Assembly: GCA_963969395.1 (NCBI GenBank)
Contig: OZ017797.1
Coordinates: 31,124,001-31,188,000, forward strand
From: Pseudoscleropodium purum
Taxonomy: Eukaryota; Streptophyta; Bryopsida; Hypnales; Brachytheciaceae
Length of the DNA: 64,000 nucleotides
Direction: 5' to 3'
Both the position numbers and the translations under genes were made by a program. The first letter of the stretch is position 1. Every line of letters starts with the position of its first letter. The notes beneath the pieces were generated by a model. The model was not told the DNA's origin, ran no database searches, and saw nothing but the letters and a program-made list of their open reading frames with translations. Shown here piece after piece: positions 55,786-64,000 of this stretch.

Positions 55786-55953
55786 ATGGGCAGTGGAAGT
55801 GGTTATGGAAGTGGGGGTGAGTTAGACAGCACTCCCAATGGAGCGGGTGTGAAGTATGGAAAGTCCAAGAAGCAGCGTCAGCAACAACAGGCGCAGCAGC
55901 AGCAGGGTGGACAGCAGACGCAGCAAGGGGCCGTCGTTACTACCGGTACTTAA
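55786..55953 (+). CDS. Possible 55-aa Gly/Gln-rich small protein
   Basis: No family recognised. A single open frame from ATG to TAA: residues 1-24 are Gly/Ser-rich (MGSGSGYGSGGELDSTPNG), a basic patch KYGKSKKQRQ follows, then a Gln-rich run (QQQQAQQQQGG) and a short neutral tail AVVTTGT. Its codon composition is balanced and unlike the AT-rich flanks, and it lies downstream of a balanced leader-like region with splice signals. No signal peptide or membrane helix. It could instead be the 5' end of a longer spliced protein or a chance frame over a CAG-rich repeat. Confidence 0.4.
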   Translation: MGSGSGYGSGGELDSTPNGAGVKYGKSKKQRQQQQAQQQQGGQQTQQGAVVTTGT

Positions 55954-57430: not shown

Positions 57431-60400
57431 ATGGTGAGTGTCGGGATATGGCGAGCAGTGGTTGCTCGCGAGAGGCCGGCGAGTTGTTGGTGGAGGATGA
57501 TCGCTTTGGGAGCTGGATCTCACACTCCGGTTCGTCATTCTCGCTTCGTTCACGCCCCCGCGGAGCCGTCCGACATCACTCTCGTCCACGAGACGCTCAA
57601 AATCGCCTCGCTCGTCACCGCATTCCGCAGTCGAGGACATTTCGTGGCCACTCTTGGTAAGGAATTTGATGAAATTGGAGTGCTGAGTGAAGATTATCTG
57701 CGGAATTGAGATTGAAATCATTTGGTGCTTGAATTTTGGAATGATTTTGAGGTAACAGAGAGCATTATCGCTTTCTTTAATCGCGAGTCACTTTTGCTGT
57801 CAAGAGAAGAAATTGCAATATCTTTTGGAATCGAGAGCCATTTCTGCTGACAATCGAGGAAATTGCGGTGTCGTTGGTAAAATGGAACCGATGAGTAATT
57901 GTCTCAGATTTCGGATGTTTTTATGAATAGTCACAGTGAGTACCGTTTGAATTTTGCAGTGGGATTTTGTGTTGGAATCAGCGAATTTTGAAATGATTTT
58001 GAAATGCTGAAGTTTGTAGTCAATTGAGGAAAGAACAATTCGGCAGTGTAATTGAATTCATGATTAACCATCAAGCTTTAGGAGAATTTGACGGTTTACC
58101 AAATTGGATAATGTTCGAATTTTCCTTCAAAATCTGGTTTGATATTGACTTTTGAATTTTGAAATGATCCTGAGATGATGGAGCTCATTGTATCATTTCT
58201 AATTCGAGATTGATTTCTGCGGTAAATCGAGGAAATTGCAATTCGGCGGAAGCGGTGATTAACCATTTCAGATTATTGAAGATATTGGTGAAGTACCAAG
58301 TGATTATGTATTGCTCATCCGGTCCATTGGCGTTTTTGATGTGGCAGATCCGCTGGGAAGGACATTGGGTCGACTGGTGGAAGGGAACGATGAGGCGGCA
58401 TACGCTGAGCCCGAGAATGCGAAAGACCTTTTTGAGCTTCTGAAGAATTATCCTTCCTTAAACCTCGATGCTGTGGGATTGAAGGGCGTGGATCCTAATA
58501 AAAGGTCCGTGCCAGCCTGTCTCTGCATTTGCCTTTCGTTGCATCTTGTATAAACAATCACAACGATTTGTAGACGGTTTCACAGATGCTTTATTGTTCA
58601 GATACTATCTGGGCGATCATCTGCGCATATCACGGGCTACGCAGCTCTTTTGGACCGTCAATGAAGTGGTGTCATTGCTACGAGGAAGCTACTGTGGCAC
58701 GACCACCGTAGAGCATGAGCATGTCGTTTCCAAGCCTGCTAAGGATTGGATCCGCCTTATGGTGGAGCGTCCGCAGGCACGGTCTCTCTTTCATCCCTCT
58801 TTTCAGCGGCGGATCTTGTATCACTTGCTCTACGCTGGTATCTCTCAACCCTCTCGTGTTTCTTTATGTGTGACTTTTCGTTTCTTGATTGTGAGCAGAA
58901 CGGATTTTGTCAAATTCTTAAACCCCCGATTGTTTTATGGGGATGAACAGATCATTTCGAACGTTTTCTTGCAACGAAATTTCAGGCCTCCAAACGTTTT
59001 GGCATTGAAGGATGCGAAAGTTTAATACCTGGTCTCTTCGCGCTCATTGAGGTTTGCACTTAATATTAGTTCAGAGTATATGCTGCTTTGTCAGTCTCCA
59101 GTTCGGTCGAACAAGAGTAAACGTTTCATGAATGGAAAAGCGCTTACCAGATGTTCATGTGCTGTGGTTTGCATGGTCTTATTACCTACACTAGGACACG
59201 ATTCTTGGTGACTTTGTGGCATGGGCTATGATGAATTGCTATTCTGAAAAGGTCGGACTGAAATGACGCAGCGTGCAGCAGAAAGCGGGATTAAAGCCAT
59301 TGAGCTGGGAATGTCACACAGGTTCTCATTCTCGGTTCTTGCTTCCCTATTTGTTTCATTGAATTCAGGACGTAATTCGCATTGAAAGTCAACCTTATGA
59401 TCTTTTGATTGCATTGAGAATATAAAGTTTGTATCTAAATGTGCCTTATTTTGTCAGGGGGCGGCTGAATGTGCTGCACACGATCCTCTCAAAGCCACTT
59501 GGAAGCATCATAACAGAGTTCAAAAATGTGGGAGACATCGACTTTTTACAGGTTGGAGATGTCAAGTACCATCTGGGCACTCGCGGTACTTTGACCTTTG
59601 ATGACAAAAAGGTAATGTCTTGTTCAATGGAGCACCTATCTTACATCTTGTAGTAACAGGCCTGTTCCTCTGTCTGTTCTTCTCATTATTTGCGAAGGTG
59701 ATAACTACTATGCTTACCGGAAAGTGTTTGGGATTCGCAGCTTCACTTCTCGCTTCTGCCAAATCCAAGCCATTTGGAAGCAGTTGATCCTGTTGTTTTG
59801 GGAAAGACTCGTGCTAAGCAATTTTTTACTGGAGACACCGCAAGACTGCAAAACATGGTAGGTAATTTTCAGCATATTAATGGCAGTACTTTTACGTCGT
59901 GTATGATATCTTGTCAGGTCTTGCTATCTGAGTAAATTTTGTGGCAGCAAGTTAGCTGATCAGGAAATTAGATGCAGTGTGTTGAATTCTCAAGTCAGTT
60001 GCATGTAGGAATTTGGAGGCTGATGTTTGATGAGAAGACTGTGATTCTCGTGGGGTGTACTGATTAAAATGGGCGTTGCCCATTATGCGTGGATGTTGTA
60101 CGCTGAAAGAGACTTATGTAATATAAGCATGGTTTTAAGTTCACTATCTTGATCGTACTTGTTATGAAAATACCTTGAATCTTCTATTTCTTTTTGGCCC
60201 TCTTTATCTTGTGGATAATGACTGGTATATTTAACACATGCCGTATTGGGTGCAGGGTCTTGTACTTCATGGTGACGCTGCATTCAGTGGCTTGGGTCTT
60301 GCCGCAGAAGTTATGCAGGTGTGTGCTCAAATATCTCCGCCTCTTGTTCTTGGTTGTTTTTATAAATTTACGATTAATCGTAAGATTCTTATATAGTTTT

Positions 60401-63400
60401 TGTGCTGATCGCGGCAATATATGTTGGGTTGGTTGGATGGATGGTTTTGTTTCTACCTCAAGCTTTCAGACCTACCCCAATATACGACAGGAGGAACTAT
60501 CCATGTCATCGTTAACAATCAAATAGGCTTTACGACGGACCCGAAACTCGCTCGCTCCTCTCCTCACCCAAGTGATGTTGCGAAGGTACTCTGCATTTTA
60601 CTGTTTCGACCACGTCGGGGTCGTAGGAGTTGCTCTCCCAGGAGTGCACAGGGCCCATGTTTGCGGAATGCCATTGAGCCACAATCTTGTGATAAAGTTT
60701 CATGGTTGCGACCACTTTTGAGAGCTAACTAAGTTATTTTATAGCATTTAAATTTGAATCCTTACCGAGACTCACGACATTTGTGCAGGGTGTAGGAGCT
60801 CCAATTTTTCACTGCAATGGAGATGATCCGGAGGGCGTGGCTCATTTCTGTCGGTTGGCTGTAGATTGGCGCCAGGTGACCACAATCAATCCAAAGATTC
60901 TCACCTCTTGAATTTCGCATGCTCTCTCTTAGTGGGTTCTGGCGTCCGATTCGTCTGGGCAATTACAGTCTTTCGTGTGGGTACGAGGTCTCGCTTTCGT
61001 CAGTATGTGACATTCAAGGTCTTCTTGCTGAAGGCCAACTCTCTTGTGCATCTTTCTTTTTGAAATCCTCGATGGAAGCATTAAGATATAGATTTGCCAA
61101 TTCTTGCAGCGGATCATTTGGAGTTGCTTTAGATGCTTGGGTGAGTGGTGGTATCTTGTAAATTGGTGCACGCTTCTAACATTTTTGTTGATGATCTTCA
61201 GAAATTTCAAACGGATGTTGTTGTGGATCTTGTTTGCTACCGGCGCCATGGTCATAACGAGCAAGTTCGTCTTCCAATATCAGCCTTCTTTCATATTTCA
61301 ATTTTTGGTGTATCAAAGTCGACACTCAAACAGATATATTGGCTTGTTGTTGGGCTATAAGATCACTGATAAGTTCTTGCAGCCTTCGGTTTTCCTGATA
61401 ATAGAATCGATGGGTGTGCCAGGATGACCCAAGAGCGACACAGCCTTTGACCTATCAGAAAATTCAGAATCATCCCACAACGCTGCAGATATACTCGCAA
61501 AAGCTTCTTCTCGAAGGCATCATCACTCAGGACGTGCGTCCTTCTACCTTATCGTGGTTGTGACCAGAAAACGACTCTCTGCTATGCGTTATTCCAACTG
61601 GCGTGAATCTTTGACCAAGAGTTGTAATGAGACTTGCGTATTGTTTACAGGTCTTGGATAAGTGGACCAATGAGGTGGATGCTAAGTTTGAGGCTGAGTA
61701 TGCTGCTGCCGACTCCTATGCTCCCACTTTGCATGAATGGCTGGCAAGCAACTGGCAAGGTAGATCAAGTGACTAATTTTCGTTTCAGTGGCATTAAGAT
61801 GTGAATAGACTAAGCATTGAAGATTGAAAGCCTTGCTGATGAATAAGCAAGTGATGAACTATTAACTCATTCTTAATTTACACAATTCAGGTGAGGCTCT
61901 TGGGTCGTCGAGTTCAAAACGATACATCCAGCCAACTGGGCTAGATTTGGAGAGCCTTCGGCATGTGGTAAGAAAATTACGACATATTTTTCCTCAAGGC
62001 AAGCTAATGCGCTTGAGTTTGACCTATTCTATTAGATCTTGTGAAGTTGGTGTCGATTGTCATGTGTTTTCAGTATGCCTCAAGCTTGAGTTGACCGCAC
62101 TTTGAGCTAAGTCTTCTGAAATTGTTTTGGCAGGGGTGTGCGATTAGTACTCCACCTGCTGGGTTCAACTTGCATCCGGATGTAAGCATTGACAGAAAAC
62201 ACTATCGTCTTTTGATTTGAAACTTGGTTCTAAAATTTCTTCGAACTGAGTAAGGACACCTCCTAATACATAGCCATAGCCAATCTGACGCAGTTATATC
62301 TGTTGTTTAATTTTATCGTCCTACAAGTTGTAGGTAGAAAATTTGCTGAAATCAAGAGCGCGCATGATGGAAACTGGAGTTGGAATCGATTGGGCGATGG
62401 CTGAAGCGTTGGCAATGGGGTGAGTGCTATACGATATTCCGCATTTCTTCTTTTTTTGTCCAGGAACAGAGTGTCGCGAAGTCTGTTCACTCGCTTGAGT
62501 TTACGATGAGCATTTTCCACCCTGATCAATCTCTGCGCGTTTCTGCAGGTCGTTACTCGTGCATGCAGATACAAAGCGAGGCCAGACACCTGAAAGGAAT
62601 CCTCACTTTCCTGTGAGACTTAGTGGCCAGGATTGTGAGCGAGGCACTTTCAATCAGCGCCACTCTGTCCTCTACGATCAATCTACAGCAAAACGGTGTG
62701 TCTTCAGTCCCTTATTTTTATTTAATGGGTAACATATTGGGAACTCAGACTTCAAAATGAGAACCACGTACAAACCAGAGCATTGATGATGGTGACTGAT
62801 GGCTGATGCTGACTGATTTCCAGATACATTCCGCTGAATAATATCTGTCCTGGGCGACAAGCTGAGTTTGTTGTGTGCAATTCAAATTTATCTGAAGCAG
62901 CCGTTTTGGGATTCGAGTATGGCTTTAGTCTAGAGAACGAGAACGCTCTCGTCCTGTGGGAGGCTCAGGTAGAATTCTCATCATTACAGATTATTGTCAT
63001 TGACTTCGACAGGTTCATAATTCAGTTTCTTGAATGACGATATCGAAATGCGGAAAGTGAGAAAGGAAGAAGCTTTTTATTTCCATCGTTCAATCATGAA
63101 TTTTGGTCATTGATATGATGATTTCTTAGCCGATTACTGTCGTAATTGCAGTTTGGAGACTTTACCAATAATGCACAATCGATGATTGATAACTTCATCG
63201 CCTGTGGTGAGGAAAAGTGGATGACTCCTACGGGTCTAGTCCTACTACTGCCCCACGGCTACGATGGCCAAGGCCCTGAGCACAGCTCTGCAAGACTAGA
63301 GCGATTTTTACAGGTACTCGCCTCGCCTCAAGTATCTTTCTTTGGCTGGTTGTAATCTTCTTTGGTTGATATCTTTACACTAACGACGTTTGTCTCGATG

Positions 63401-64000
63401 GACATCAGCTCTGCAACGATGATCCTGATCATCTTCCCGGCTTTGGACCTCAACACAAGTTGCAGATGGAGGCTGGCTTTGCTGCCGCTGATAAAGGTTT
63501 GCGTTGTTAGGATACTGTCAATCAGTGAGATTTATGGTTCCGAAGTTGTCAAGATGAATGTCTTATTTCTTAGAACAGCGCATACTGACACTGTGGATGT
63601 AATTTTCCAGATGGAAAAGGCTATTTGACTCGAGCTGATCTAGAAGCAGTGATGAAAGGGGTTAGCTCGGAGCGTGTTGAGATTCTGTTGCAGGAGCTTG
63701 ACTTTGGGCATGCAGGCCGAATTGAAAGGTGATGTCTCTTTCTCGTTGCTCAGTTCAGGCCAGCTGATCGAAAACTCCAGTTGATTGCAATCGTAATACG
63801 CTTGATCAGTGTGGAATGTACTGTACCTGACAAATTTGTGCTGGGCAGGTTTTCCAATTCCAGCATCTTAAGTCTGACTTACGCTTTAGATGCCTTGGTA
63901 CACCTACTATTCGAATCTTAGAAGTGGTTCTGAATTTGTTTCTGGTGGTAAATATTGTGCTTTCGTTCTTGCAGACGAGATTGGGATGTATTCATGGCGC
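57431..64000 (+). CDS. DHTKD1: Mitochondrial 2-oxoadipate/2-oxoglutarate dehydrogenase E1 (DHTKD1-type) with an EF-hand pair, 5' part
   Basis: A ThDP-dependent E1 that decarboxylates a 2-oxoacid for an E2/E3 complex. Exons: 57431-57656, 58348-58504, 58602-58837, 58951-59051, 59272-59321, 59458-59611, 59741-59857, 60256-60318, 60463-60585, 60789-60875, 61202-61264, 61423-61533, 61651-61759, 61891-61967, 62134-62181, 62334-62419, 62549-62695, 62824-62968, 63152-63313, 63409-63496, 63611-63728, 63975 onward; about 831 residues in the window. Residues 1-42 are rich in Arg and hydrophobics with no acids until later, a mitochondrial presequence. Key motifs: [35 protein letters not shown] (352-359) with NN at 386-387 for Th[60 protein letters not shown] and NQRHS wording favour DHTKD1 over OGDH, as does the lack of the long OGDH N-terminal module. 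Residues 782-831 then form two EF-hands. There is also an extra stretch [16 protein letters not shown] before VRLSGQD. The C-terminus lies outside. Confidence 0.92.
57657..58347 (+). other. Intron 1 of the E1 gene
   Basis: 691 bp. Contains loosely repeated phrases (CGAGGAAATTGC at about 57855 and 58228; TTTTGAAATGAT at about 57989 and 58157) that hint at an old internal duplication, about 300-370 bp apart. No coding signal. Confidence 0.5.

Follow-up and report, generated by a model that had tools for sequence, protein, structure and literature searches.

The DNA analysed here, a window of 64,000 nucleotides (G000:C41:31124001-31188000) from a 313-Mb genome of 52 contigs, ends within a gene for the E1 component of a 2-oxoacid dehydrogenase. 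It raises the question of whether a pair of EF-hands lies inside this enzyme and, if so, what the pair does there. A sequence-only reading had proposed that this lineage has a built-in calcium-binding module in a 2-oxoadipate/2-oxoglutarate dehydrogenase, and had named as checks an extension beyond position 64000, profile searches for PF13499 and OxoGdeHyase_C, and a survey of bryophyte and algal E1 proteins. The answer that we consider quite probable is that the gene encodes a 2-oxoglutarate dehydrogenase (OGDH) E1 of an old paralogous subfamily, in which an EF-hand pair placed in the delta-3 segment would have a structural or regulatory role and would be a pseudo-EF-hand in streptophytes.

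The gene runs from 57431 to 66089 (window-equivalent coordinates, + strand) and its 28 exons, spread over 8.66 kb, encode 1067 amino acids. The last 6.6 kb of the window hold exons 1-22 (Table 1), with 831 residues encoded before the window ends. Downstream DNA, overlapping the window exactly, carries the rest of exon 22 (to 64037) and six more exons that complete the enzyme, with the stop codon ending at 66089. All introns are GT-AG and the exon phases match in the spliced reading of the window DNA. Exons 20-22 continue in phase after the motif LERFLQ, and the two loops fall at residues 782-793 and 814-825, as had been proposed. The E1 C-terminal domain resumes past 64000, where the frame runs through OxoGdeHyase_C to the stop in genome DNA; E1_dh, Transket_pyr and OxoGdeHyase_C all score well above the Pfam cut-offs in the full 1067-aa protein. 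Its first 40 residues include six Arg and one acidic residue, a composition compatible with a mitochondrial presequence. The relative P0001 is 88.9% identical to this protein end to end, with 7 gap positions and the same domain order, and is probably transcript-derived, because its longest contig has 3855 bases compared with 8.66 kb for the gene here. The nearest named relative is P0004, from Sphagnum compactum, which makes a moss the very likely source of the DNA.

Table 1. Features of the E1 gene, in window coordinates.
Feature	Position	Strand	Remark
E1 gene, exons 1-22 of 28	57431..64000	+	gene end outside window (G000:C41)
E1 exons 1-5	57431-57656, 58348-58504, 58602-58837, 58951-59051, 59272-59321	+	
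E1 exons 6-10	59458-59611, 59741-59857, 60256-60318, 60463-60585, 60789-60875	+	
E1 exons 11-15	61202-61264, 61423-61533, 61651-61759, 61891-61967, 62134-62181	+	
E1 exons 16-18	62334-62419, 62549-62695, 62824-62968	+	
Exon 19, Transket_pyr, last before the insert	63152..63313	+	splicing and Pfam
Exon 20, E1 linker, then first EF-hand helix and loop 1 residues D782 and K783	63409..63496	+	
EF loop 1 codons, residues 782-793	63490..63639	+	split by intron 63497-63610
Exon 21, remaining loop 1, its second helix, first helix of EF 2 and most of loop 2	63611..63728	+	
EF loop 2 codons, residues 814-825, degenerate	63700..63981	+	split by intron 63729-63974
Exon 22, final helix of the EF pair, then return to E1	63975..64037	+	window edge at 64000

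A reading of exons 20-22 as a gene of their own, as the result of mis-splicing or as a chance run of helices is scarcely credible and was rejected: introns do split both loops and the window does end inside exon 22, but the reading frame runs on through the E1 C-terminal domain to a stop codon, the probable transcript P0001 shows the same order, and other species have conserved the module.

The sequence of the insert and two predicted structures of relatives confirm that it is an EF-hand pair. The 77-residue piece that follows LERFLQ matches EF-hand_7 (PF13499) with 32.6 bits (E 1e-7) and passes the Pfam gathering cut-off of 30, which the same segment does not reach within longer proteins (23.5 bits in the 831-aa model, 23.2 in the 1067-aa protein). 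Calmodulins in the PDB match the 77-aa piece at about 1e-7, a whole-chain value that is the sum of two lobes, and the single lobes shown match at E 0.02 to 0.2. With a profile of 20 family segments, calmodulins were found at about 1e-19 (whole chains; two stretches each pass alone). The value of 6e-28 for EFCAB6 adds up weak stretches, none of which passes alone. The insert resembles calmodulin-type pairs in its two helix-loop-helix units 32 residues apart and its calmodulin-like loop 1; it differs from them in its degenerate loop 2 and in being inserted in an enzyme domain.

Tested singly, 19 of 28 subfamily linkers matched an EF-hand model with an E-value of at most 0.1, and 16 with one of at most 1e-3; the three matches at 0.01-0.02 are unsafe, since unrelated models match weakly at E 0.008-0.08 in the same scans. 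A Pfam cut-off was passed by five of the 28 (the window piece, P0005, P0017, P0028 and P0087). No EF-hand match was obtained in nine (P0008, P0011, P0016, P0018, P0034, P0041, P0067, P0126 and P0128), nor in any of the three control linkers. Whole-protein scans gave EF-hand_7 at E 0.01 in 10/22 subfamily members. AlphaFold2 models of P0001 (mean pLDDT 81.8, pTM 0.85) and of the distant P0028 (79.9 and 0.83) both predict a helix, a strand-bearing loop, two helices, a second strand-bearing loop and a final helix in the insert segment, which is the fold of an EF-hand pair. Local pLDDT in the insert is 63-83 for P0001, where the helices lie at 763-776, 786-792, 798-807 and 818-831, and 62-87 for P0028. 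No EF-hand chains were among the best 50 matches of a whole-model fold comparison; E1 chains fill these lists, which are uninformative on the insert.

The junction had been read as lying just before the C-terminal domain, but the Pfam boundaries in ordinary OGDH put the insertion inside Transket_pyr. Because the Transket_pyr match spans this point in ordinary OGDH (640-851 in P0104), the EF pair interrupts a loop of the PYR domain. The site corresponds to delta-3, residues 720-733 of DHTKD1, by a hand count with the register taken from Tyr190, Tyr370 and Asp707. By the measure that gives 111 residues in P0001, the delta-3 segment of ordinary eukaryotic OGDH has about 46. According to PMC7340257, delta-3 and the active-site loop of DHTKD1 pack against the interdomain linker, and this linker follows a path that overlaps the sites where bacterial E1s bind the effectors acetyl-CoA and AMP. 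For mammalian OGDH, the same paper places a predicted calcium motif at the delta-3 equivalent (citing Rigden and Galperin 2004). By analogy, such surroundings make a regulatory role of the EF pair plausible: it may pack near the interdomain linker and the active-site loop, where bacterial E1s bind allosteric effectors.

Regarding the substrate, four pocket positions separate OGDH (Phe/Tyr/Phe/Glu) from DHTKD1 (Tyr/Ser/Tyr/Asp) according to PMC7340257, and the window gene has the OGDH set. As an 88.9% identical proxy, P0001 scores above the cut-offs of two NCBIfam equivalogs for 2-oxoglutarate E1, PRK09404.1 and TIGR00239, and also above that of PRK12270.1 (multifunctional oxoglutarate decarboxylase), which the ordinary OGDH P0104 passes too. 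A 2-oxoadipate enzyme is disfavoured by the pocket letters, and of the two substrates first named only 2-oxoglutarate was retained. Among 36 subfamily rows, some with unreadable positions, the fourth letter is the Asp of DHTKD1 in 10 and none has Tyr, Ser and Tyr at the first three. The enzyme, a thiamine-diphosphate decarboxylase, would thus decarboxylate 2-oxoglutarate and succinylate an E2. It shares catalytic domains, motifs and the FYFE pocket with ordinary eukaryotic OGDH (PDB 8i0k, 7wgr), its best PDB sequence match (E 5e-186), whereas ordinary OGDH has PF16078, the OGDH N-terminal domain, together with a linker of 43-47 residues and no EF-hand pair. DHTKD1, the 2-oxoadipate dehydrogenase E1 (PDB 6sy1, 6u3j), shares the catalytic fold; it lacks the N-terminal OGDH calcium motifs according to PMC7340257, as the window gene lacks the PF16078 region. 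It differs in its Y/S/Y/D pocket, in a delta-3 of 14 residues and in its long branch outside the subfamily on the tree.

Linkers could be measured in 117 of 125 proteins (six had no end point and two no start) and fall into classes: most bacterial SucA have 28 residues, ordinary eukaryotic OGDH has 43-47, and a long-linker group has 88-213. Three insert-less subfamily members have 49-51 residues, and P0127 has 81 by another end point. With the linker cut out, both of our trees, quick ones built without bootstraps, separate the subfamily from all other rows by a branch with SH-aLRT 100. The LG+G4 tree had 62 rows (34 subfamily relatives plus the window gene, with the odd N-terminus of P0010 trimmed) and counted the insert-less P0079, P0097 and P0116 as subfamily; the LG+C20 tree had 56 rows (30 plus the window gene, with DHTKD1, P0007 and P0010 not included) and counted P0079 and P0097. 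Ordinary OGDH rows do not form a supported clade (support 10 in LG+G4, two changes in LG+C20), so the trees are compatible both with a subfamily that is their sister and with one that arose among them. The source genome has two further OGDH loci with short linkers (on C48 and at C41:16.89 Mb), which makes the window E1 an extra paralog and not the sole OGDH. Guillardia theta has the subfamily gene P0079, in a gene model without the module, and the ordinary OGDH P0104. A locus on C1 (L012, G000:C1:3382201-3392100, - strand) has a C-terminal OGDH match like that of the C41:16.89 Mb copy, with few other exons in 9.9 kb, and is maybe a partial copy or pseudogene.

The homolog lists comprised the best 120 of 7998 scored sequences. 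The named organisms with the module are Sphagnum compactum, Klebsormidium nitens, Chara braunii, Closterium and the dinoflagellate Prorocentrum cordatum, and further subfamily sequences group with Guillardia and chrysophyte proteins. The survey of bryophytes and algae therefore recovered the same insertion in Sphagnum, Klebsormidium, Chara, Closterium and others, and a novelty of mosses alone was rejected, as the module occurs in charophyte algae, Prorocentrum and other sequences. The pair is built in, as first read, but marks a wider E1 subfamily and is not peculiar to one lineage. A search with the insert in one database (E 1e-3) gave 11 matches among 510 candidates, none of them from a named vascular plant. 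Automated annotation had already noticed the domain in Chara and Prorocentrum, whose proteins UniRef calls 'EF-hand domain-containing protein'. Among the papers listed for EF-hand together with the enzyme, largely from outside subscription journals, no title or abstract opening gave an account of an EF-hand within E1.

The insert diverges faster than the core, with identities of 70% vs 85% in Sphagnum and 45% vs 73% in Chara; together with the nine of 28 linkers without an EF-hand match, this indicates that it can decay or be replaced. Several members depart from the common arrangement. The chrysophyte P0097 and P0116 and the Guillardia P0079 have no module, which is present in their close kin P0027 and P0015; P0097 shows a clean cut (AEIDA|AEQKHN), which could stem from exon skipping, from an error in the gene model or from a true loss. 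A subclade of P0041, P0067, P0126 and P0127 (Effrenium voratum) has a different sequence of 81-90 residues at the insert site, and the three of these that were scanned gave no EF-hand match. At the same loop, the linkers of P0031, P0032, P0039 and P0049 reach 187-213 residues, and that of P0031 contains a long acidic tract. P0012 (Closterium sp. NIES-64) is a 1499-aa E1 with an extra PF14438 domain, either a fusion or a gene-model error.

Whether the module binds calcium depends on the loops. In the window gene, loop 1 has D1, D3, G6, L8, T9 and Asp at 12, with Lys at position 5 instead of a ligand; loop 2 is without ligands at 3 and 5 and is degenerate throughout the family alignment. The canonical set of oxygen ligands (positions 1, 3, 5 and 12) is thus incomplete in this gene. 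Asp at position 12 of an EF loop weakens calcium binding and favours magnesium. The departures noticed at the outset (K at 5, D rather than E at 12) were borne out and proved common to the streptophyte rows: position 5 of loop 1 is basic in 10/10 (nine Lys, one Arg) and position 12 is Asp, the window gene included. Several of these rows are close kin, so they do not represent 10 independent events; P0002, P0003 and P0012, absent from the trees, were counted as streptophyte. Of the 18 other placed rows, two (P0018 and P0030) have a basic residue at this position 5. Full loop 1 ligands with Gly6 were identified by eye in seven of 28 (P0017, P0021, P0023, P0028, P0029, P0044 and P0087), all outside the streptophyte group, and the strict pattern with Glu at 12 was found in 3/39 long linkers (P0017, P0028 and P0087).

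The loop table behind these counts has 33 rows, of which 28 were placed at offset 34 or 35 and P0128 elsewhere, with P0020, P0025, P0034 and P0129 not placed. The script allowed few offsets and required a hydrophobic residue 8, which in part imposes the shared register; a pattern scan without the offset limit placed the loop at 34-37 in 20/39 long linkers. The table leaves out P0011, P0024 (a near-copy of P0013), P0031, P0032, P0039, P0041, P0049, P0067, P0126 and P0127, as well as the insert-less P0079, P0097 and P0116.

A working calcium sensor, in which calcium at loop 1 would activate or restrain the enzyme, fits the near-calmodulin residues of that loop and the complete loops of relatives such as P0087 (DTNSDGFVDRDE) and P0028 (DQDGTGKLNKSE). 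For the window gene we consider it unlikely, given the Lys or Arg at position 5 in every streptophyte row, the Asp instead of Glu at 12 and a loop 2 without most ligands. The EF-hand pair of the first reading stands, but its calcium binding is doubtful here. The loop looks unlikely to bind calcium tightly, whereas some relatives have loops that seem capable of it. The likeliest reading of the residues is therefore that the moss module is a pseudo-EF-hand and that some other members have a possible calcium site. In streptophytes, the charge of the basic residue 5 probably offsets that of the acidic loop and keeps the loop folded without calcium, so that loop 1 would be a pseudo-EF-hand or else a weak or magnesium site; an intact loop 1 in some other members could bind calcium and tune activity.

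The calcium-sensitive OGDH of animals (DADLD motif, exon 4b) offers a comparison, being also a 2-oxoglutarate E1 with a calcium-related module. Its tested site is an N-terminal DxDxD, described in PMC9177970 as lacking Gly6 or an acidic residue 12, and differs from the EF-hand pair; the further motif predicted at the delta-3 equivalent (PMC7340257) coincides with the site of the EF pair.

The module might also be mainly a docking surface for E2/E3 or another partner, offsetting the missing PF16078, with metal irrelevant. PF16078 was found in none of 22 subfamily members, some of which (P0008, P0022) are N-terminally cut short, and neither in the full moss protein (E 0.01) nor in the 831-aa model (E 1), and it is present in the ordinary OGDHs P0104 and P0131. 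PMC7340257 implies, however, that DHTKD1 has not kept the OGDH binding features, and yet DHTKD1 45-919 copurified with DLST; a substitute for the missing features is thus not required. Moreover, the short-linker P0139 and P0156, which have no PF16078, group with ordinary OGDH, so that loss of this domain need not accompany the insert. We regard docking as the main function as unlikely. The structural or regulatory module that we prefer may itself replace the missing N-terminal segment.

Going further, it is possible, as a tentative proposal that we hold with less than even confidence, that the subfamily is a third, undescribed eukaryotic class of 2-oxoglutarate dehydrogenase, in which an early algal calcium-sensing EF switch was locked in streptophytes by the basic position 5, and that vascular plants have lost the gene. 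If so, the TCA cycle would have come under calcium control twice, here and in animals, through separate sites in the same enzyme. The gene itself points to an E1 paralog that has been overlooked next to the textbook enzyme of mosses and algae, and it offers a ready test of direct calcium control over the algal TCA cycle. Its EF-hand lies at the very delta-3 loop for which a calcium motif is predicted in animal OGDH. The natural series of intact loops, basic streptophyte position 5, and loss or replacement elsewhere serves as a built-in set of mutants.

Finally, Rfam and tRNA scans of the 64-kb window were empty. Upstream of the E1 gene, a short open frame at 55786-55953 encodes a glutamine-rich run (KKQRQQQQAQQQQGGQQTQQ).
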